This document shows, one piece after another, positions 26,868-31,620 of a DNA stretch of 35,660 nt (its first letter is position 1; every line of letters begins with the position of its first letter). Origin of the DNA: Prevotella sp. (GTDB lineage Bacteria; Bacteroidota; Bacteroidia; Bacteroidales; Bacteroidaceae). Below the pieces are notes generated by a model. It was given only the letters and a program-made list of their open reading frames with translations. It was not told the origin of the DNA and did not search any database. The position numbers were made by a program, and so were the translations under genes. The stretch is taken from NCBI GenBank assembly GCA_017557185.1, contig JAFZAP010000044.1, forward strand, positions 1-35,660, read 5' to 3'.

Positions 26868-26900
26868 CTCCCTCCCTATGGGGGAGGGCGGGGGGAGAGG
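26868..26900 (+). repeat. GC-rich palindromic element, copy 3
   Basis: CCCTCCC (26870-26876) pairs with GGGAGGG (26882-26888) and is followed by CGGGGGGAGAGG. Almost identical to the copy at 28601. Confidence 0.75.
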
Positions 26901-26915
26901 CTCTTTTTGTATGAA

Positions 26916-27122
26916 CGGTCACAGGTCACAGCTGTGACCATGTGTCCTCGCAGTTTCAAAGGGCGGTCACAGAGGTCATTTTGACATAATATAAGCAAAT
27001 AGATGTTTTTCATGACATTATTTCCATAAAACAGCAATTATTGCAATCATAATGTCAAAACGAAACGGTCACACTATTTTGAACCGAAAAGGTCACATGG
27101 TCACAGCTGTGACCTGTGACCG
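26916..27122. mobile_element. 207-bp MITE-like unit with perfect 29-bp terminal inverted repeats
   Basis: Positions 26916-26944 and 27094-27122 are exact reverse complements over 29 bases. Each contains the palindrome GGTCACAGCTGTGACC. The 149-bp interior is AT-rich, has two more GGTCACA copies, and holds nested inverted repeats TGACATTAT (27013) and ATAATGTCA (27049). No ORF is inside. It could be a non-autonomous element or a binding region for a dyad-recognising regulator. No clear target-site duplication is seen. Confidence 0.55.
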
Positions 27123-27206: not shown

Positions 27207-27294
27207 TTCTCGGGGTTATAATAATGAAAAATCGGGGGTATAATTTGTCGGAATAAAAAATTGTTTGTATCTTTGCCACAGAATCAATTTAACG
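27207..27294 (+). repeat. left 88-bp inverted repeat of the kinase/RNA cassette
   Basis: It matches the reverse complement of 28363-28450 at 82 of 88 positions without a gap. It runs from TTCTCGGGG to AACG and contains a full promoter (TTTG at 27244-27247, TATCTTTG at 27268-27275) pointing into the cassette, plus the transcribed first bases CAGAATCAAT. Confidence 0.9.
27244..27275 (+). promoter_or_regulatory. promoter of the small ORF / kinase unit
   Basis: A -33 element TTTG (27244-27247), a 20-base spacer and a -7 element TATCTTTG (27268-27275) match the Bacteroidetes consensus closely. The start codons at 27297 and 27304 lie about 20-30 bases downstream. Confidence 0.8.
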
Positions 27295-27296
27295 TT

Positions 27297-27959
27297 ATGG
27301 ACTATGACATTTCTAAATCAGTTTCACAAGGAAGCGACGGAGCGCAAGATGCGGAAAATTGCCGAATCGCAAAAATCGCCGATGAGCTCTGCCGACTTTG
27401 CCAACTACATGAAGCGCAACCTGGAACGGGCCAAACAGATGTAACCCCGTTCGAGCGAGAACAGCGTGCAGCTGAGCAAATGGCAAAGGCTGGCGGCTAT
27501 TGGATTCTGATGATGCAGGTGTTCGACCTCGGTGTGCCTGGTCCCAGTGGAAACGAAAATGACACATATGTTTCCGATGATGCCGTCTATAAAGTGAATA
27601 ATCTGATGAATAACGGCGGTATCGTGGCTCTACTTGAAAAGATATTGATGCACAACGTGCTCTTCCCCGATACGGCATATCAGTTCCACGGCTTTGCAGG
27701 TTTTGACGGTCGCACCGTGCAGCCCGTCCTCAAGCAGGTTCGCGTGGCCAATGCCACTCCAGCCACACAGATTATGATTGACACCTACATGGCAGCCCTG
27801 GGCTTTGAGAAAGCAGGTGATGTAGGTCGTTTTTCCAATGGGAGCTTTCTGGTTTGGGATATCCTACCACGTAACGTGCTAGTTGATGCTGAGGGTGATA
27901 TCTTTGTGGTTGACGCAGAAATAAAACGATGTGAAGTAGCCATACAAAGCTATAAGTAA
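27297..27959 (+). CDS. putative polyvalent-type protein kinase
   Basis: The C-terminal 165 residues resemble the putative polyvalent protein kinase family found in mobile elements. GNENDTYVSDDAVYKVNNLMN looks like a glycine loop and the beta-3 lysine; FDGRTVQPVLKQVRV follows. VWDILPRNVLVDAEGDIFVVDAEI resembles the D-x(4)-N catalytic loop and a later metal-binding Asp. The start is uncertain. ATG 27297 follows the promoter, but residues up to about 49 look out of frame and overlap the small ORF. Similarity begins near TPFEREQRAAEQ (27444 on), and the next ATG is at 27480. A TTG start at 27261 is rejected because it lies in the promoter. Substrate unknown; an anti-phage or mobile-element role is speculation. 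Confidence 0.65.
   Translation: MDYDISKSVSQGSDGAQDAENCRIAKIADELCRLCQLHEAQPGTGQTDVTPFEREQRAAEQMAKAGGYWILMMQVFDLGVPGPSGNENDTYVSDDAVYKVNNLMNNGGIVALLEKILMHNVLFPDTAYQFHGFAGFDGRTVQPVLKQVRVANATPATQIMIDTYMAALGFEKAGDVGRFSNGSFLVWDILPRNVLVDAEGDIFVVDAEIKRCEVAIQSYK
27304..27444 (+). CDS. small ORF (46 residues) preceding and overlapping the kinase frame
   Basis: This short frame encodes a charged helical peptide (MTFLNQFHKEATERKMRKIA...) and ends MKRNLERAKQM-stop at 27444. Its codons (AAG, CGC, AAC, CTG, GCC) match the usage of neighbouring genes better than the overlapping kinase frame does. It may be a separate small protein translated before the kinase, or the N-terminal part of an ancestral kinase protein cut off by a one-base shift. 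I do not recognise a family. Confidence 0.55.
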   Translation: MTFLNQFHKEATERKMRKIAESQKSPMSSADFANYMKRNLERAKQM

Positions 27960-27967
27960 AGAATACA

Positions 27968-28121
27968 CGGAGCATAGCTTTAGAGCAACTGGAGCTATGC
28001 TTTCGAACCTCTGGAGCATAGCTTACGAACTGCTGGAGCTATGCTCTAGAACAACTGGAGCATTGCTTTAGTATGACTAGAGCAATGCTCTGGCAGGACG
28101 AGAGCAGTGTTCTTGTTTTAC
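27968..28121. repeat. tandem array D, seven copies of a 22-bp unit
   Basis: Units start at 27968, 27990, 28012, 28034, 28056, 28078 and 28100, exactly 22 bp apart. The core alternates (T/C)GGAGCATAGCTT and TGGAGCTATGCTT, so each unit contains an AGC-nnn-GCT palindrome. It begins 9 bases after the kinase stop. It relates to array C at 6185. Units abut without unique spacers. Confidence 0.85.
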
Positions 28122-28194
28122 GATCTCATTGCACTTGCATCACCAAAGCATTGAGATAGACATACGGAAGGATTTCTTTTGATGTACGTAAAGG

Positions 28195-28222
28195 CACCCC
28201 TCCTTTTGCAGGGGGAGGCCCC
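28195..28222 (+). repeat. GC-rich palindromic element, copy 4 (degenerate)
   Basis: CACCCCTCC - TTTTGCA - GGGGGAGGCCCC. It is the weakest of the six copies, and its arms pair only with a G-T wobble and a mismatch. It lies next to the terminator of the candidate RNA. Confidence 0.6.
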
Positions 28223-28260
28223 TAAAAATACCAGCCCGGGTCTCACGACTGGGGCTGGCT
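28222..28260 (-). terminator. terminator of the leftward candidate RNA
   Basis: On the minus strand CCAGCCC (28258-28252) pairs with GGGCTGG (28237-28231) and is followed by TATTTTTA. The plus-strand side has no T-run, which sets the direction. Confidence 0.75.
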
Positions 28261-28375
28261 AACTTAAACTTATACAATATGATACCTAAACAATCAATTA
28301 TCTAGTTTAAAGGGGAGTGAAGGGCTTAAAGGGACATTACAGTCTTTACCCTCTCAACGCCCCGTTTGATTGATT
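28222..28375 (-). ncRNA. candidate structured noncoding RNA of about 150 nt
   Basis: A complete leftward promoter (28413-28382) and an intrinsic terminator (28260-28222) bracket a stretch whose only ATG frame is three codons long. The transcript can fold into one long hairpin. AATCAAT near the 5' end pairs with ATTGATT; inside it CGGGG pairs with CCCC, then AGGG with CCCT and TAAAG with CTTTA, around an apical loop. Such a rod with internal bulges recalls regulatory RNAs in general. I do not recognise an Rfam family. It is convergent with the kinase gene. Confidence 0.55.
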
Positions 28376-28450
28376 CTGCGGCAAAGATACAAACATTTTT
28401 TTATTCCGACAAATTATGCCCCCGATTTTTCATTATTATATCCCCGAGAA
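28363..28450 (-). repeat. right 88-bp inverted repeat of the kinase/RNA cassette
   Basis: The reverse complement of 27207-27294 with six mismatches. Identity continues past the promoter into the transcribed start (GCAGAATCAAT), so a duplicated or transposed unit is more likely than mere promoter convergence. Confidence 0.9.
28382..28413 (-). promoter_or_regulatory. promoter of the candidate noncoding RNA
   Basis: On the minus strand TTTG (28413-28410), a 20-base spacer and TATCTTTG (28389-28382). Spacing is identical to the kinase promoter in the left repeat. Confidence 0.75.
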
Positions 28451-28569: not shown

Positions 28570-31500
28570 ATGAAAACTATCAACCTTTTCAAACAATTGC
28601 TTCCCTCCCTATGGGGGAGGGTTAGAGTAGGGCTACTACTTCTTTGCCTCATGGCAATGGGCGCTGCCGAAGTGAAGGCTGCAGAAGCCTATGCCTGTTT
28701 AACATACCCTGTTATTGGGAATCCTACTCTGACCTTCTACTATGACAACCTACGTTCGACACGTACTATGACGTACGATTTGGGAGAATTCAATTACGAT
28801 AATTTACCGGGATGGAAAAATGCTGGTATTACCAAGGTTACCTTCGATGCCTCATTTGCAAATGCACGTCCCACGAGAACGACGTATTGGTTCTACGGAT
28901 GCTCTAATTTAACTTCTGTGACAGGCATTGAGAACCTCAATACTTCGAATGTCACCCATATGGGTTTAATGTTCTATGGTTGTTCCAAACTGACCTCCCT
29001 TGACGTATCTAACTTCAATACGGAGAATGTCACCGGCATGGCCTCAATGTTCTATGGTTGTTCCCAACTGACCTCCCTTGACGTATCTAACTTCAATACG
29101 GAGAATGTCACCAGCATGGCCTATATGTTCGATGGTTGTTCCCAACTGACCTCCCTAGATGTATCAAACTTCAATACGGCGAAGGTCACCAATATGGTCT
29201 TTATGTTCTTTGATTGTTCCGCTCTGACAACCATCTACTGCAGTGCCAGTTGGAGTGTGGCTTCTTCATCAACTTCTATGTTTAGTGGTTGCACAAGTCT
29301 CGTGAGCCAGACTTCCGGACTCAGTTACGATGAGAACAAGACAGACGCCACCTATGCCAATCCCATAACGGGGTACTTTACGGATGTTTCTTATGCAGTC
29401 TTTACAGGTAGCAACAACACGCTGACGTTCTATTGCGACAATCAGAGGAACTCGCGTCCGGGAACATCCTACAACCTGAACCATGGAGAAACTGTGCCAG
29501 ACTGGATAAGTGACGGAAATAGTTCGTTAATCCAGCACGCGGTGTTCGACTCCTCATTCGACCACGCCCGCCCCGTTTACACTAACGCATGGTTTGCCGG
29601 GTTGACAACCTTGCAGGACATCACGGGGCTGGAACACCTGCACACCGATGAAGTAATCTATATGAGGTCGATGTTCCAGGGTGCTTCGGGGCTGACCAGT
29701 CTCGACCTCTCGACATTCAACACAGGCAAGGTGACAAACATGGCTAACATGTTCTACGGGTGTACGGGTCTCACCAGTCTAGACATCTCCTCATTCAACA
29801 CCGAGAACGTCACGACGATGTCCTATATGTTCCGAAACTGTTCGAGCCTCACCAGTCTCGACTTGAGCAGTTTCAACACCAAGAAAGTGGCCAGCATGGA
29901 CTTTATGTTCTCTGGTTGCTCTGCTTTAACGACCATCATAGCAGGCGACGATTGGAGCACCTCTGCGGTGGTCCTTTCCGGATCCATGTTCATGAGTTGC
30001 CCTAACCTCACAGGCCGTAATGGTACGAAGTTCGATAGTAGCCACACCGATGCTGAATATGCCCGCTTCGACAATGCCCCCACCAGCCCGGGCTACCTGA
30101 GCGACATTAACAGTTTCTACACAGGGGACGTCAGCCTGCAATTGGAGATTCTGGGCGTGGGTGCGTTGAGACTGATCGACAAGGATGGTAATGTCGTGAA
30201 GAGCCTCTCCAACGACGAACCTATAACACTCGGCACAACAGTCCACTGGCCGAAGGGAACCCGCATGTTTATGGAGGTTACAGCCCCCGCTGGCTATGAC
30301 CCCACCCATTCCACGGCCTACCTCTTCATCGATGGCGTCTCTCGGGTAATGAGCGAAGAAACTGACGAGGACGGCAATATCTATTTCACGTATTATAAGA
30401 GCAGTATCACCGAGCCTCACTCCTATACCCTCGTATTCGTAGGTCTTGAGTCGGCAGCCGCCACCAACCTCATTGATTGGAATCTGCTTATGGTCGGCGA
30501 CGTGGATGTGACGAACAACGAGGATCCAAAGGACTATGCAGAATTGTGGTTTAATCAGCGCGACTTAATATTGATGGCTAAGGAAGGCAGTTCGCTGAAA
30601 GCCACGTACACCATTGATAAGACTTCGTACATACCCGCGGAGACGCCTGCATCCTTCCATGTATATGTAAAGCCCGGGCAGACCTTCAATGTTACCTTCA
30701 ATGGTACCGATGTACCCTTTACCCGTGACGAGGAGAATGATGAGAACGGTGCTCTCTGCTATAAATATGAAGCCACTGACTACGAGCAATTTGCCACCAG
30801 CGGCACTTGGGTGGTTGAGTTCAAGAAGGCGGGCATTACTTGGACGGCAATTGCTGTAGGCGATGTTCCTGAAGGAGCAAGGGCTGAATTCATCATGGAC
30901 GAAGATTCCGATACCCCAATGGATATCGAAATAGACCATGCTTCATCGCATGGGAGCGGCACATACTTCAACGACGAGTTAACTCCTGACATACAGTTAT
31001 ATGTAAATGTTCCTACTGGTTATTTATTCAACGTTTGGTTCAATGGTGAGGAATTTAATAACTATTGGTTAGTTGAAACTACTAATGAAGGGATTCAGAG
31101 ATGGTCATACTATACTGATGATGTAGAAGTTTTGACGCCTCTGGCTACCAGCGGCACTTGGACGGTTGAGTTTAAGAAAGCAAACGACGGCAACTACACC
31201 TGGAACCTGAAGGTAATAGGCGATATTCCTGAAGGGGCTTATGCCGATTTGTACCTTGATGGACAGACGTATGAGGTGTATGCTAGGCCAAGCGACTCAT
31301 ATCTTACTGATATCATCGAACCTTGGCCAGATGGTAATTATGCCTTCGGTGGTCAAATTATTGTTCCTAAGGGATATACCTTCACGCTGTTGTGCAATGG
31401 TGAGGACATCTCGACGGACTTTGATTATAATGAAGCACAATCATATTATTACAAGTATTTGACTGCAGCTCAGTCCGCCCGCTTCAATACCGACATCGAC

Positions 31501-31620
31501 TGGGTTATCGCTTTCACGAAGATTGACGAGAACGATGTGAACTGCGACGGCGAGGTGAATATCTCCGACGTTACGAAACTTGTGAATGAGATATTGGAGC
31601 AGGCTCCGACTCAACCCTAA
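28570..31620 (+). CDS. BspA-like surface protein with DUF285 repeats
   Basis: A 1016-residue exported protein. After a signal peptide (1-37) two similar halves follow. Each has an NxTLTFYxDNxR segment, an ARP...W motif and a run of 26-residue DUF285/BspA-type repeats (LTSLDVSNFNTENVTSMAYMF type). The runs are at about 100-220 and 345-460. The C-terminal part has three related modules marked by SGTWxVEFKKA (two clear copies, one diverged). The end, DVNCDGEVNISDVTKLVNEIL, is a dockerin-like calcium-binding segment common at the C-terminus of Prevotella secreted proteins. No type IX sorting domain is evident. Relatives bind host matrix or other bacteria. Three repeats in the first half are near-identical 78-bp DNA copies. 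Confidence 0.88.
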   Translation: MKTINLFKQLLPSLWGRVRVGLLLLCLMAMGAAEVKAAEAYACLTYPVIGNPTLTFYYDNLRSTRTMTYDLGEFNYDNLPGWKNAGITKVTFDASFANARPTRTTYWFYGCSNLTSVTGIENLNTSNVTHMGLMFYGCSKLTSLDVSNFNTENVTGMASMFYGCSQLTSLDVSNFNTENVTSMAYMFDGCSQLTSLDVSNFNTAKVTNMVFMFFDCSALTTIYCSASWSVASSSTSMFSGCTSLVSQTSGLSYDENKTDATYANPITGYFTDVSYAVFTGSNNTLTFYCDNQRNSRPGTSYNLNHGETVPDWISDGNSSLIQHAVFDSSFDHARPVYTNAWFAGLTTLQDITGLEHLHTDEVIYMRSMFQGASGLTSLDLSTFNTGKVTNMANMFYGCTGLTSLDISSFNTENVTTMSYMFRNCSSLTSLDLSSFNTKKVASMDFMFSGCSALTTIIAGDDWSTSAVVLSGSMFMSCPNLTGRNGTKFDSSHTDAEYARFDNAPTSPGYLSDINSFYTGDVSLQLEILGVGALRLIDKDGNVVKSLSNDEPITLGTTVHWPKGTRMFMEVTAPAGYDPTHSTAYLFIDGVSRVMSEETDEDGNIYFTYYKSSITEPHSYTLVFVGLESAAATNLIDWNLLMVGDVDVTNNEDPKDYAELWFNQRDLILMAKEGSSLKATYTIDKTSYIPAETPASFHVYVKPGQTFNVTFNGTDVPFTRDEENDENGALCYKYEATDYEQFATSGTWVVEFKKAGITWTAIAVGDVPEGARAEFIMDEDSDTPMDIEIDHASSHGSGTYFNDELTPDIQLYVNVPTGYLFNVWFNGEEFNNYWLVETTNEGIQRWSYYTDDVEVLTPLATSGTWTVEFKKANDGNYTWNLKVIGDIPEGAYADLYLDGQTYEVYARPSDSYLTDIIEPWPDGNYAFGGQIIVPKGYTFTLLCNGEDISTDFDYNEAQSYYYKYLTAAQSARFNTDIDWVIAFTKIDENDVNCDGEVNISDVTKLVNEILEQAPTQP
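28601..28634 (+). repeat. GC-rich palindromic element, copy 5, inside a signal peptide
   Basis: CCCTCCC - TATG - GGGGAGGG plus a tail. It encodes LPSLWGRVRVGL, residues 11-22 of the BspA-like protein, between the n-region and the hydrophobic core of the signal peptide. Confidence 0.75.
28990..29223 (+). repeat. three near-identical 78-bp tandem repeats in the BspA-like gene
   Basis: Units start at 28990, 29068 and 29146 and encode 26 residues each. The first two differ by only a few bases, a sign of recent duplication; such repeats can expand or contract by slippage or recombination. Confidence 0.85.

Follow-up and report, generated by a model that had tools for sequence, protein, structure and literature searches.

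The locus examined here raises the question of which of its parts belong together. Within a 35,660-nucleotide stretch of Prevotella sp. DNA (the window, i.e., the whole stretch that was analysed), positions 27207 to 28450 had been read in a first-pass annotation as a cassette in which a polyvalent-type kinase gene and a convergent structured RNA, transcribed from identical promoters in a pair of inverted repeats, would act as a pair, toxin/antidote-like or otherwise, or would form a mobile unit. We conclude that the reported cassette is no functional unit and that its left half belongs to a conserved pair of overlapping genes, namely the kinase gene and a small gene nested out of frame within the kinase 5' end.

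The inverted repeat itself is real. Its arms at 27207-27294 and 28363-28450 (annotated without strand) are 88 bp long each, agree at 82 of 88 positions and are spaced 1,068 bp apart, and the same promoter-like sequence is found in each, pointing inward as had been described. In the left arm it consists of TTTG-N20-TATCTTTG, with TTTG at 27244-27247 and TATCTTTG at 27268-27275; by consensus, these sequences are putative promoters. The left arm provides the promoter and leader of the unit formed by the kinase and the small gene, and the right arm carries the same promoter and leader leftward, stopping at the point where the left copy is 2 bases short of the kinase ATG. A single copy of a 54-bp core of the arms is found at C30:1810-1863 of the same genome (locus L010, genome G000; 94-98% identity), before an unrelated gene that is presumably hydrolase-like; the promoter core thus occurs singly at one further site with an unrelated gene, but not at many. 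This core lies ~490 bp behind a transposase-like ORF, which we assume to be IS110-like. Another inverted pair, 45 nt long (87%) and built on GGTCACAGCTGTGACC, is located between the upstream gene and the kinase unit, at 26916-26960 and 27078-27122 of the window.

The 10-mer CGTTCTTTCT, reported on both outer sides of the repeat, has exactly two occurrences in the window (27201 and 28467), where 0.07 would be expected. The left copy overlaps its arm by 4 bases and the right copy is 16 bases off the other arm, and because of this asymmetric placement the two do not constitute a clean target duplication. Apart from the 54-bp core at C30, no further copies of the inverted-repeat unit were found in the genome. 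A transposable element or MITE is therefore rejected, and with it the notion of a mobile unit. Inversion between the arms would also alter little, because both promoters face inward. At the 62 relatives of the kinase that were examined (one of which, L039, has too little upstream sequence to be evaluated) no comparable arms are present, i.e., the kinase occurs without them; short or weak inverted matches were seen in three of the 62, namely 27 nt in L044 and L068, and 35 nt together with a 132-column match of 68% in L051.

The sequence between the arms on the right side is likewise of a generic kind. Directly after the right leader, the minus strand of 28251-28362 consists of gene-tail-type sequence with no ORF of the pair remaining, and it ends in a terminator hairpin at 28231-28258 (minus strand; CCAGCCCC...GGGCTGG then TATTTTT) of the same kind as those behind other genes of the genome. 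Of the structured RNA with its own terminator that had been proposed here, the hairpin terminator stands, but the RNA region matches 13 further sites in the same genome, some over only 30-40 bp, and several of these lie directly behind the stop codons of BspA-type and other unrelated genes, with the same terminator hairpin. Its folding is modestly better than that of shuffled sequences (z -2.29, 3 of 200 shuffles as good), and Rfam gives no match above the gathering threshold anywhere in the window. In 59 other genomes the region is hardly conserved, with one weak 38-bp match; these genomes include G033 and G034, which have some of the nearest kinases. The palindrome array between kinase and RNA region (27969-28113, no strand assigned) does show the seven 22-bp units that had been described, each with a short palindrome and visible from 27971 to about 28113, but it is not special: it is a dispersed repeat resembling more than 20 other sites of the genome, and Tandem Repeats Finder counts no more than 4.7 copies at period 22, or 2.8 at period 44. 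Two further repeats were observed in passing. A tail repeat (AGAGGGTAAAGA...GTAATGTCCCTTTAAGCCC) is present behind the stop codons of several genes here (L011, L013, L014, L015, L018), and an identical 20-mer, TCCCTCCCTATGGGGGAGGG, is found at 26869-26888, which is intergenic, and at 28602-28621 inside the ORF 28570-31620, where it falls in an N-terminal, signal-peptide-like part, so that an intergenic repeat seems to have turned coding.

A pairing of kinase and RNA is accordingly dismissed, the RNA region being a dispersed tail and terminator sequence of this genome. The arms with their inward promoters and the flanking 10-mers in excess of chance are what speaks for the cassette in either form; against the dispersal of the RNA region, its near absence elsewhere, the lack of comparable arms at relatives, the single copy of the unit and the imperfect geometry of the 10-mers, we consider it very improbable. 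The inverted repeats seem to be merely a local promoter copy. The right arm is most plausibly a stray copy of the promoter and leader of the gene pair joined to a generic gene tail and terminator, possibly as a remnant of a lost inverted second unit or as a copied promoter, and its promoter is predicted to yield, probably, at most a short transcript with no partner role.

What remains is the left half. The kinase gene (27297-27959, plus strand) is an ORF encoding 220 aa with a Pfam match to PF18762, Kinase-PolyVal (E 4e-21, 76.1 bits compared to a curated cut-off of 27), as the first-pass annotation had supposed. Residues K99, E87, Q147, D188, N193 and D206 are invariant in 38 sequences, and the conserved PF18762 active-site set is kept, namely the Lys, Asp, Asn and Asp, the Glu before strand 2 and the Gln of the N-lobe, with roles assigned in part by comparison with Iyer et al. 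2017 (PMC5512222). Kinases of this family have been proposed to phosphorylate host proteins in conflicts (PMC5512222). The AlphaFold2 model of the kinase (mean pLDDT 86.2, pTM 0.82) includes a helix of residues 15-40 that is encoded in the overlap, and Foldseek retrieves kinase domains only, the best at E 6.4e-4 and TM 0.30, a weak match. A kinase that starts only after the overlap is unlikely, because the frame is open to the upstream ATG, the first helix is modelled with confidence (mean pLDDT 96 for residues 21-30) and the giant ORFs described below run through the region; L080, which is part of a giant ORF, and L081 are without an obvious kinase start just upstream. Collections of phage and plasmid records gave no match with four protein queries (the window kinase against both, L191 and L224 against phages, and L080 against plasmids).

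The small gene (27304-27444, plus strand) encodes 46 aa in the +1 frame relative to the kinase. Its ATG follows the kinase ATG at 27297 by 7 nt, a distance shared by most close relatives, and its ORF lies wholly within the 5' end of the kinase gene, the overlap spanning the first ~48 kinase codons; as had been noted, the two genes form one expression unit behind the left promoter. The product is predicted to be a helical hairpin: AlphaFold2 builds two helices with pLDDT 90.0 and pTM 0.46. Database searches found no Pfam or PADLOC family, one chance-level match in NCBIfam (E 0.089), weak matches in PHROGs (best E 0.03) and a best E of 0.062 among PDB sequences, and Foldseek returned no match to the model at E 10.

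The association of the two genes was assessed from both sides. Among 62 loci found by the kinase alone, 49 have both genes, none has the kinase only, and 10 have the small gene with a kinase frame shorter than 195 aa; two have neither gene and one is cut by a contig end. Setting this edge case aside, the small gene is thus present in 49/49 loci with a kinase of at least 195 aa, the loci being related so that such counts are not independent. A profile search of 200 genomes of the same genus placed the small gene in 72 genomes (90 places) and the kinase in 87. All 48 full-length kinases of these subfamilies in the 200 genomes (matches beginning at or before model position 5 and reaching at least position 194, with no stop) have the small gene, always in frame +1; both profiles, A1 and A2, were built from loci having the pair, so that the pair is the more readily found. 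A further 36 kinases of the genus belong to other subfamilies, with an N-terminus not matched by the model. The small-gene profile reached 72 of 200 genomes in the genus, 5 of 247 in the order and 2 of 395 in a sample of the phylum, the genome of the window being included in each.

By coordinates, 49 of the 90 small-gene places overlap an intact kinase, in frame +1 throughout. Inspection of the DNA of the 34 remaining overlaps showed a broken kinase in 31, a cut by contig ends in two and an intact kinase in one, with the small ORF unbroken in all 34. The final tally is 50 places with an intact kinase, 31 with a broken one, two cut by contig ends and seven others or short fragments (two near a kinase without overlap, and five fragments of 20-26 residues). 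Most of the inspected copies that have no working kinase are preceded by TAnnTTTG-like boxes, and in L286 the small gene is followed by a C-terminal fragment of the kinase. At another locus (L290, G031:C108:92438-92744) two small ORFs of the nested family stand in tandem with no working kinase. The neighbours of the 54+54 loci scanned are mixed, with no constant third gene and with a few cases beside restriction, HipA or HepT genes.

Three tests addressed whether the small frame is coding. The position-class test used 83 distinct overlaps of 144 extracted, 60 of them with an intact kinase; the overlaps were chosen by similarity to the small ORF, and badly decayed small ORFs would be missed. 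In the 60 kinase-intact loci variability is 0.404 at the third position of the small frame, 0.240 at the third position of the kinase and 0.203 at the position that is first in one frame and second in the other, compared to 0.272/0.181/0.598 for the three codon positions of the kinase beyond the overlap. The most variable class within the overlap is therefore the third position of the small frame and not that of the kinase. The second subfamily (17 loci) gives 0.340, 0.241 and 0.173, with a control third position at 0.548, and a divergent set of nine loci, mostly giant or distant, gives 0.498, 0.293 and 0.336. Fourfold sites diverge at roughly half the rate in the small frame that they do in the kinase body, an indication that the kinase frame also restrains the overlap: 47/284 versus 276/829 (0.165 versus 0.333, 24 pairs) in one divergence bin, 256/850 versus 1176/2188 (0.301 versus 0.537, 75 pairs) in the second, and 1084/3299 versus 6022/8572 and 0/52 versus 8/149 in the other two. 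When the small protein is encoded with random synonymous codons, the kinase frame is free of stops with a mean probability of 0.007, and it is stop-free in all 60 intact loci; pairs and loci in these coding tests are related and do not represent independent trials.

In the 23 loci where the kinase frame is shorter than 200 aa, the small frame is free of stops, with pN/pS 0.14, and in four of the 23 a kinase-frame stop falls within the overlap itself. For the kinase frame in the overlap, pN/pS is close to 1 (0.93 with the kinase intact, 1.01 with it broken); since its synonymous sites are suppressed by the small frame, we do not take this as a sign of neutrality. Both frames are under constraint, as these comparisons of sequence show, and the small frame, being the more constrained, dominates the overlap. 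A chance overlap is ruled out by the position-class and fourfold-site tests and by a +2-frame control (see below), and we regard the overlapping gene pair itself as real with hardly any reservation.

The same arrangement recurs in more divergent kinases. In a second subfamily, whose kinases are 26-29% identical to that of the window, the small ORF is 18-32% identical to its counterpart in the window, with N5 and H8 invariant; 17 of the 20 loci fetched have it nested at this same position, with the two starts 4, 7 or 10 nt apart. Of the three exceptions, L190 has the motif without a preceding ATG, the N-terminus of L186 is altered, and L183 starts within the kinase. In a third group (L196, L197, L221, L224, L227, L229, L230) a +1 ORF with INDFHR is present. 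Scanning viral contigs with the kinase profile yielded 32 loci, which together with 20, 11 and 20 fetched from genomes give a set of 83 kinase loci at greater distance. In 36 of the 83, [LIVFM]N.[FYE]H stands as a +1-frame motif ahead of the kinase domain, with an ATG before it in 35 of the 36; the +2 frame has this motif in none of the 83. The other 47 have no recognisable nested motif, and because of these and the 36 unmatched kinases of the genus, the kinase does not need the partner everywhere.

Eight of the 32 viral loci carry the motif, and in seven of the eight it lies in an ORF of at least 1,400 aa (1,400-2,878 aa; two pairs among these are near-duplicates); giant ORFs are also found at L080, L193 and L211. 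Domain scans of four giants place the kinase domain mid-protein, ahead of a polyvalent InPase domain, and three of these four proteins also have LPD14. A full TAnnTTTG box (6/6), promoter-like by consensus, precedes the nested ATG within 65 nt in 8 of the 11 long ORFs (with two near-duplicate pairs), compared to 0% to 5.7% of control windows elsewhere in the same ORFs. The box is matched at 5/6 in L080 and L193, a level that ~20% of control windows reach, and at 4/6 in L240.

Two loci place the small protein differently. In L271 (G051:C91:42181-42318) a small gene of the second type begins 5 nt behind the stop of a third-subfamily kinase; the same contig carries a second, normally nested pair ~4 kb away. 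In L205 (G218:C34) the C-terminal end of the kinase resembles the small protein, in frame, and may possibly be a natural fusion of the two, as judged from a 28-residue match (E 2.8e-5) obtained when all six frames were searched permissively. We attribute a downstream small ORF in L215 (E 0.042) to chance.

The reading that we favour, with a probability of roughly 0.55 for overlap and inhibitor together, is that the locus encodes a kinase effector and its helical inhibitor as a gene within a gene. The toxin/antidote-like pair suggested earlier thus remains the best description, with the overlapping small ORF, and not the RNA, as the partner of the kinase. A single mRNA started at the left promoter would carry both genes; the kinase would act as a conflict effector modifying host proteins, and the small protein would bind and inhibit it in the manner of an immunity or antitoxin protein. 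With both starts within a few nt of each other, synthesis of the two proteins may be coupled; the putative internal promoter in giant genes would allow the inhibitor to be made without the giant protein, and solitary chromosomal copies could protect from kinases on incoming elements. As in toxin-antitoxin systems, the two genes are found together with the putative antidote overlapping the toxin, and, for these subfamilies only, the antidote is found alone and the toxin is not (10 small-only versus 0 kinase-only loci). More tentatively, at a little under even odds, phages and mobile elements of Bacteroidales would hide in a giant effector gene, out of frame and with its own promoter, an immunity gene directed at the kinase domain of that effector, and chromosomes would have captured the two as a compact overlapping pair and often kept the immunity gene alone. 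If true, this would constitute a family of fully nested, out-of-frame toxin-immunity pairs.

Three other roles for the small protein have to be weighed against inhibition. It could instead be a partner or activator of the kinase, such as a substrate adaptor or folding aid, and the strict co-occurrence with full kinases of these subfamilies agrees with that, as do the placement behind the kinase in L271 and the apparent C-terminal fusion in L205, two arrangements compatible with any physical partner. Once the kinase is broken, an activator should decay as well, and the unbroken small ORFs beside broken kinases at 31 of the 90 places, together with the small-frame pN/pS of 0.14, count against it. 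An inhibitor or immunity protein fits better, because the small gene accompanies every full-length kinase of these subfamilies found here, is kept under purifying selection beside broken ones and is carried inside effector genes of mobile elements; we therefore regard an activator as unlikely. Retention without the kinase would also fit a small protein that has an independent function (such as DNA or RNA binding), i.e., a primary gene on which an optional kinase was overprinted, and this would be in line with the promoter-like boxes of copies that have no working kinase, with the stronger constraint on the small frame and with the invariant N5 and H8. The absence of kinase-only cases among 61 evaluable kinase-found loci and the nesting at the same place in giant phage ORFs point to a standing link with the kinase, and make such a primary gene slightly less probable still than an activator. 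Finally, the short length of the ORF and the starts 4-10 nt apart might suggest a leader peptide or translation-coupling device with an irrelevant product, but amino-acid constraint along its length, persistence in copies without a kinase, the non-nested copy behind a kinase and the confident helical hairpin model render this highly implausible. Inhibition of the kinase by the small protein thus remains our preferred reading.

To our knowledge, long and conserved same-strand overlapping genes are rare in bacteria and have usually been shown in one or a few strains. The present overlap is shared by three or more divergent kinase subfamilies and by giant genes of phages, and the copies without a working kinase serve as natural controls that make dual coding measurable. 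Gene callers that forbid overlaps miss such a nested gene. We found no paper in the open-licence literature on a nested out-of-frame partner of a PF18762 kinase, and the pair appears to be undescribed there. If the small protein does inhibit the kinase, it would offer a first handle on the role of polyvalent kinases, which PMC5512222 left as a proposal, and it would suggest searching for hidden immunity genes in other polyvalent effector domains.

Several known systems share part of this organization. Immunity genes of polymorphic toxins are kept alone after loss of the toxin, and they normally follow the toxin gene. The solitary retention is alike, whereas the proposed immunity gene here lies inside the toxin gene. 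The Kinase-PolyVal domain described for polyvalent proteins (PMC5512222) is the same domain, with a reduced C-lobe and invariant active-site residues, and likewise occurs stand-alone in Bacteroidetes and inside giant (pro)phage proteins; the portions of that account used here mention no nested out-of-frame gene and no inhibitor of the kinase, whereas a nested gene is present in our loci. In the HipBST system (PMC9325769) a kinase toxin is similarly neutralised by a small separate protein, but HipS matches the N-terminal part of HipA, is encoded by a separate gene and belongs with another kinase family, and full out-of-frame nesting is not mentioned in the parts of the paper drawn on here. By analogy, the nearest concept would be that of the Rpn intragenic antitoxins (Zhong et al. 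2023, PMC10327210), where a gene within a gene yields a separately translated small product that blocks the large one, as demonstrated by experiment. RpnS is read in the same frame as RpnL and constitutes its C-terminal domain (PMC10327210). In the pair described here, by contrast, the small gene is out of frame with the large one (+1 in 49/49 overlaps with an intact kinase), lies on its N-terminal side, encodes a sequence unrelated to the kinase and is also found inside giant phage genes.
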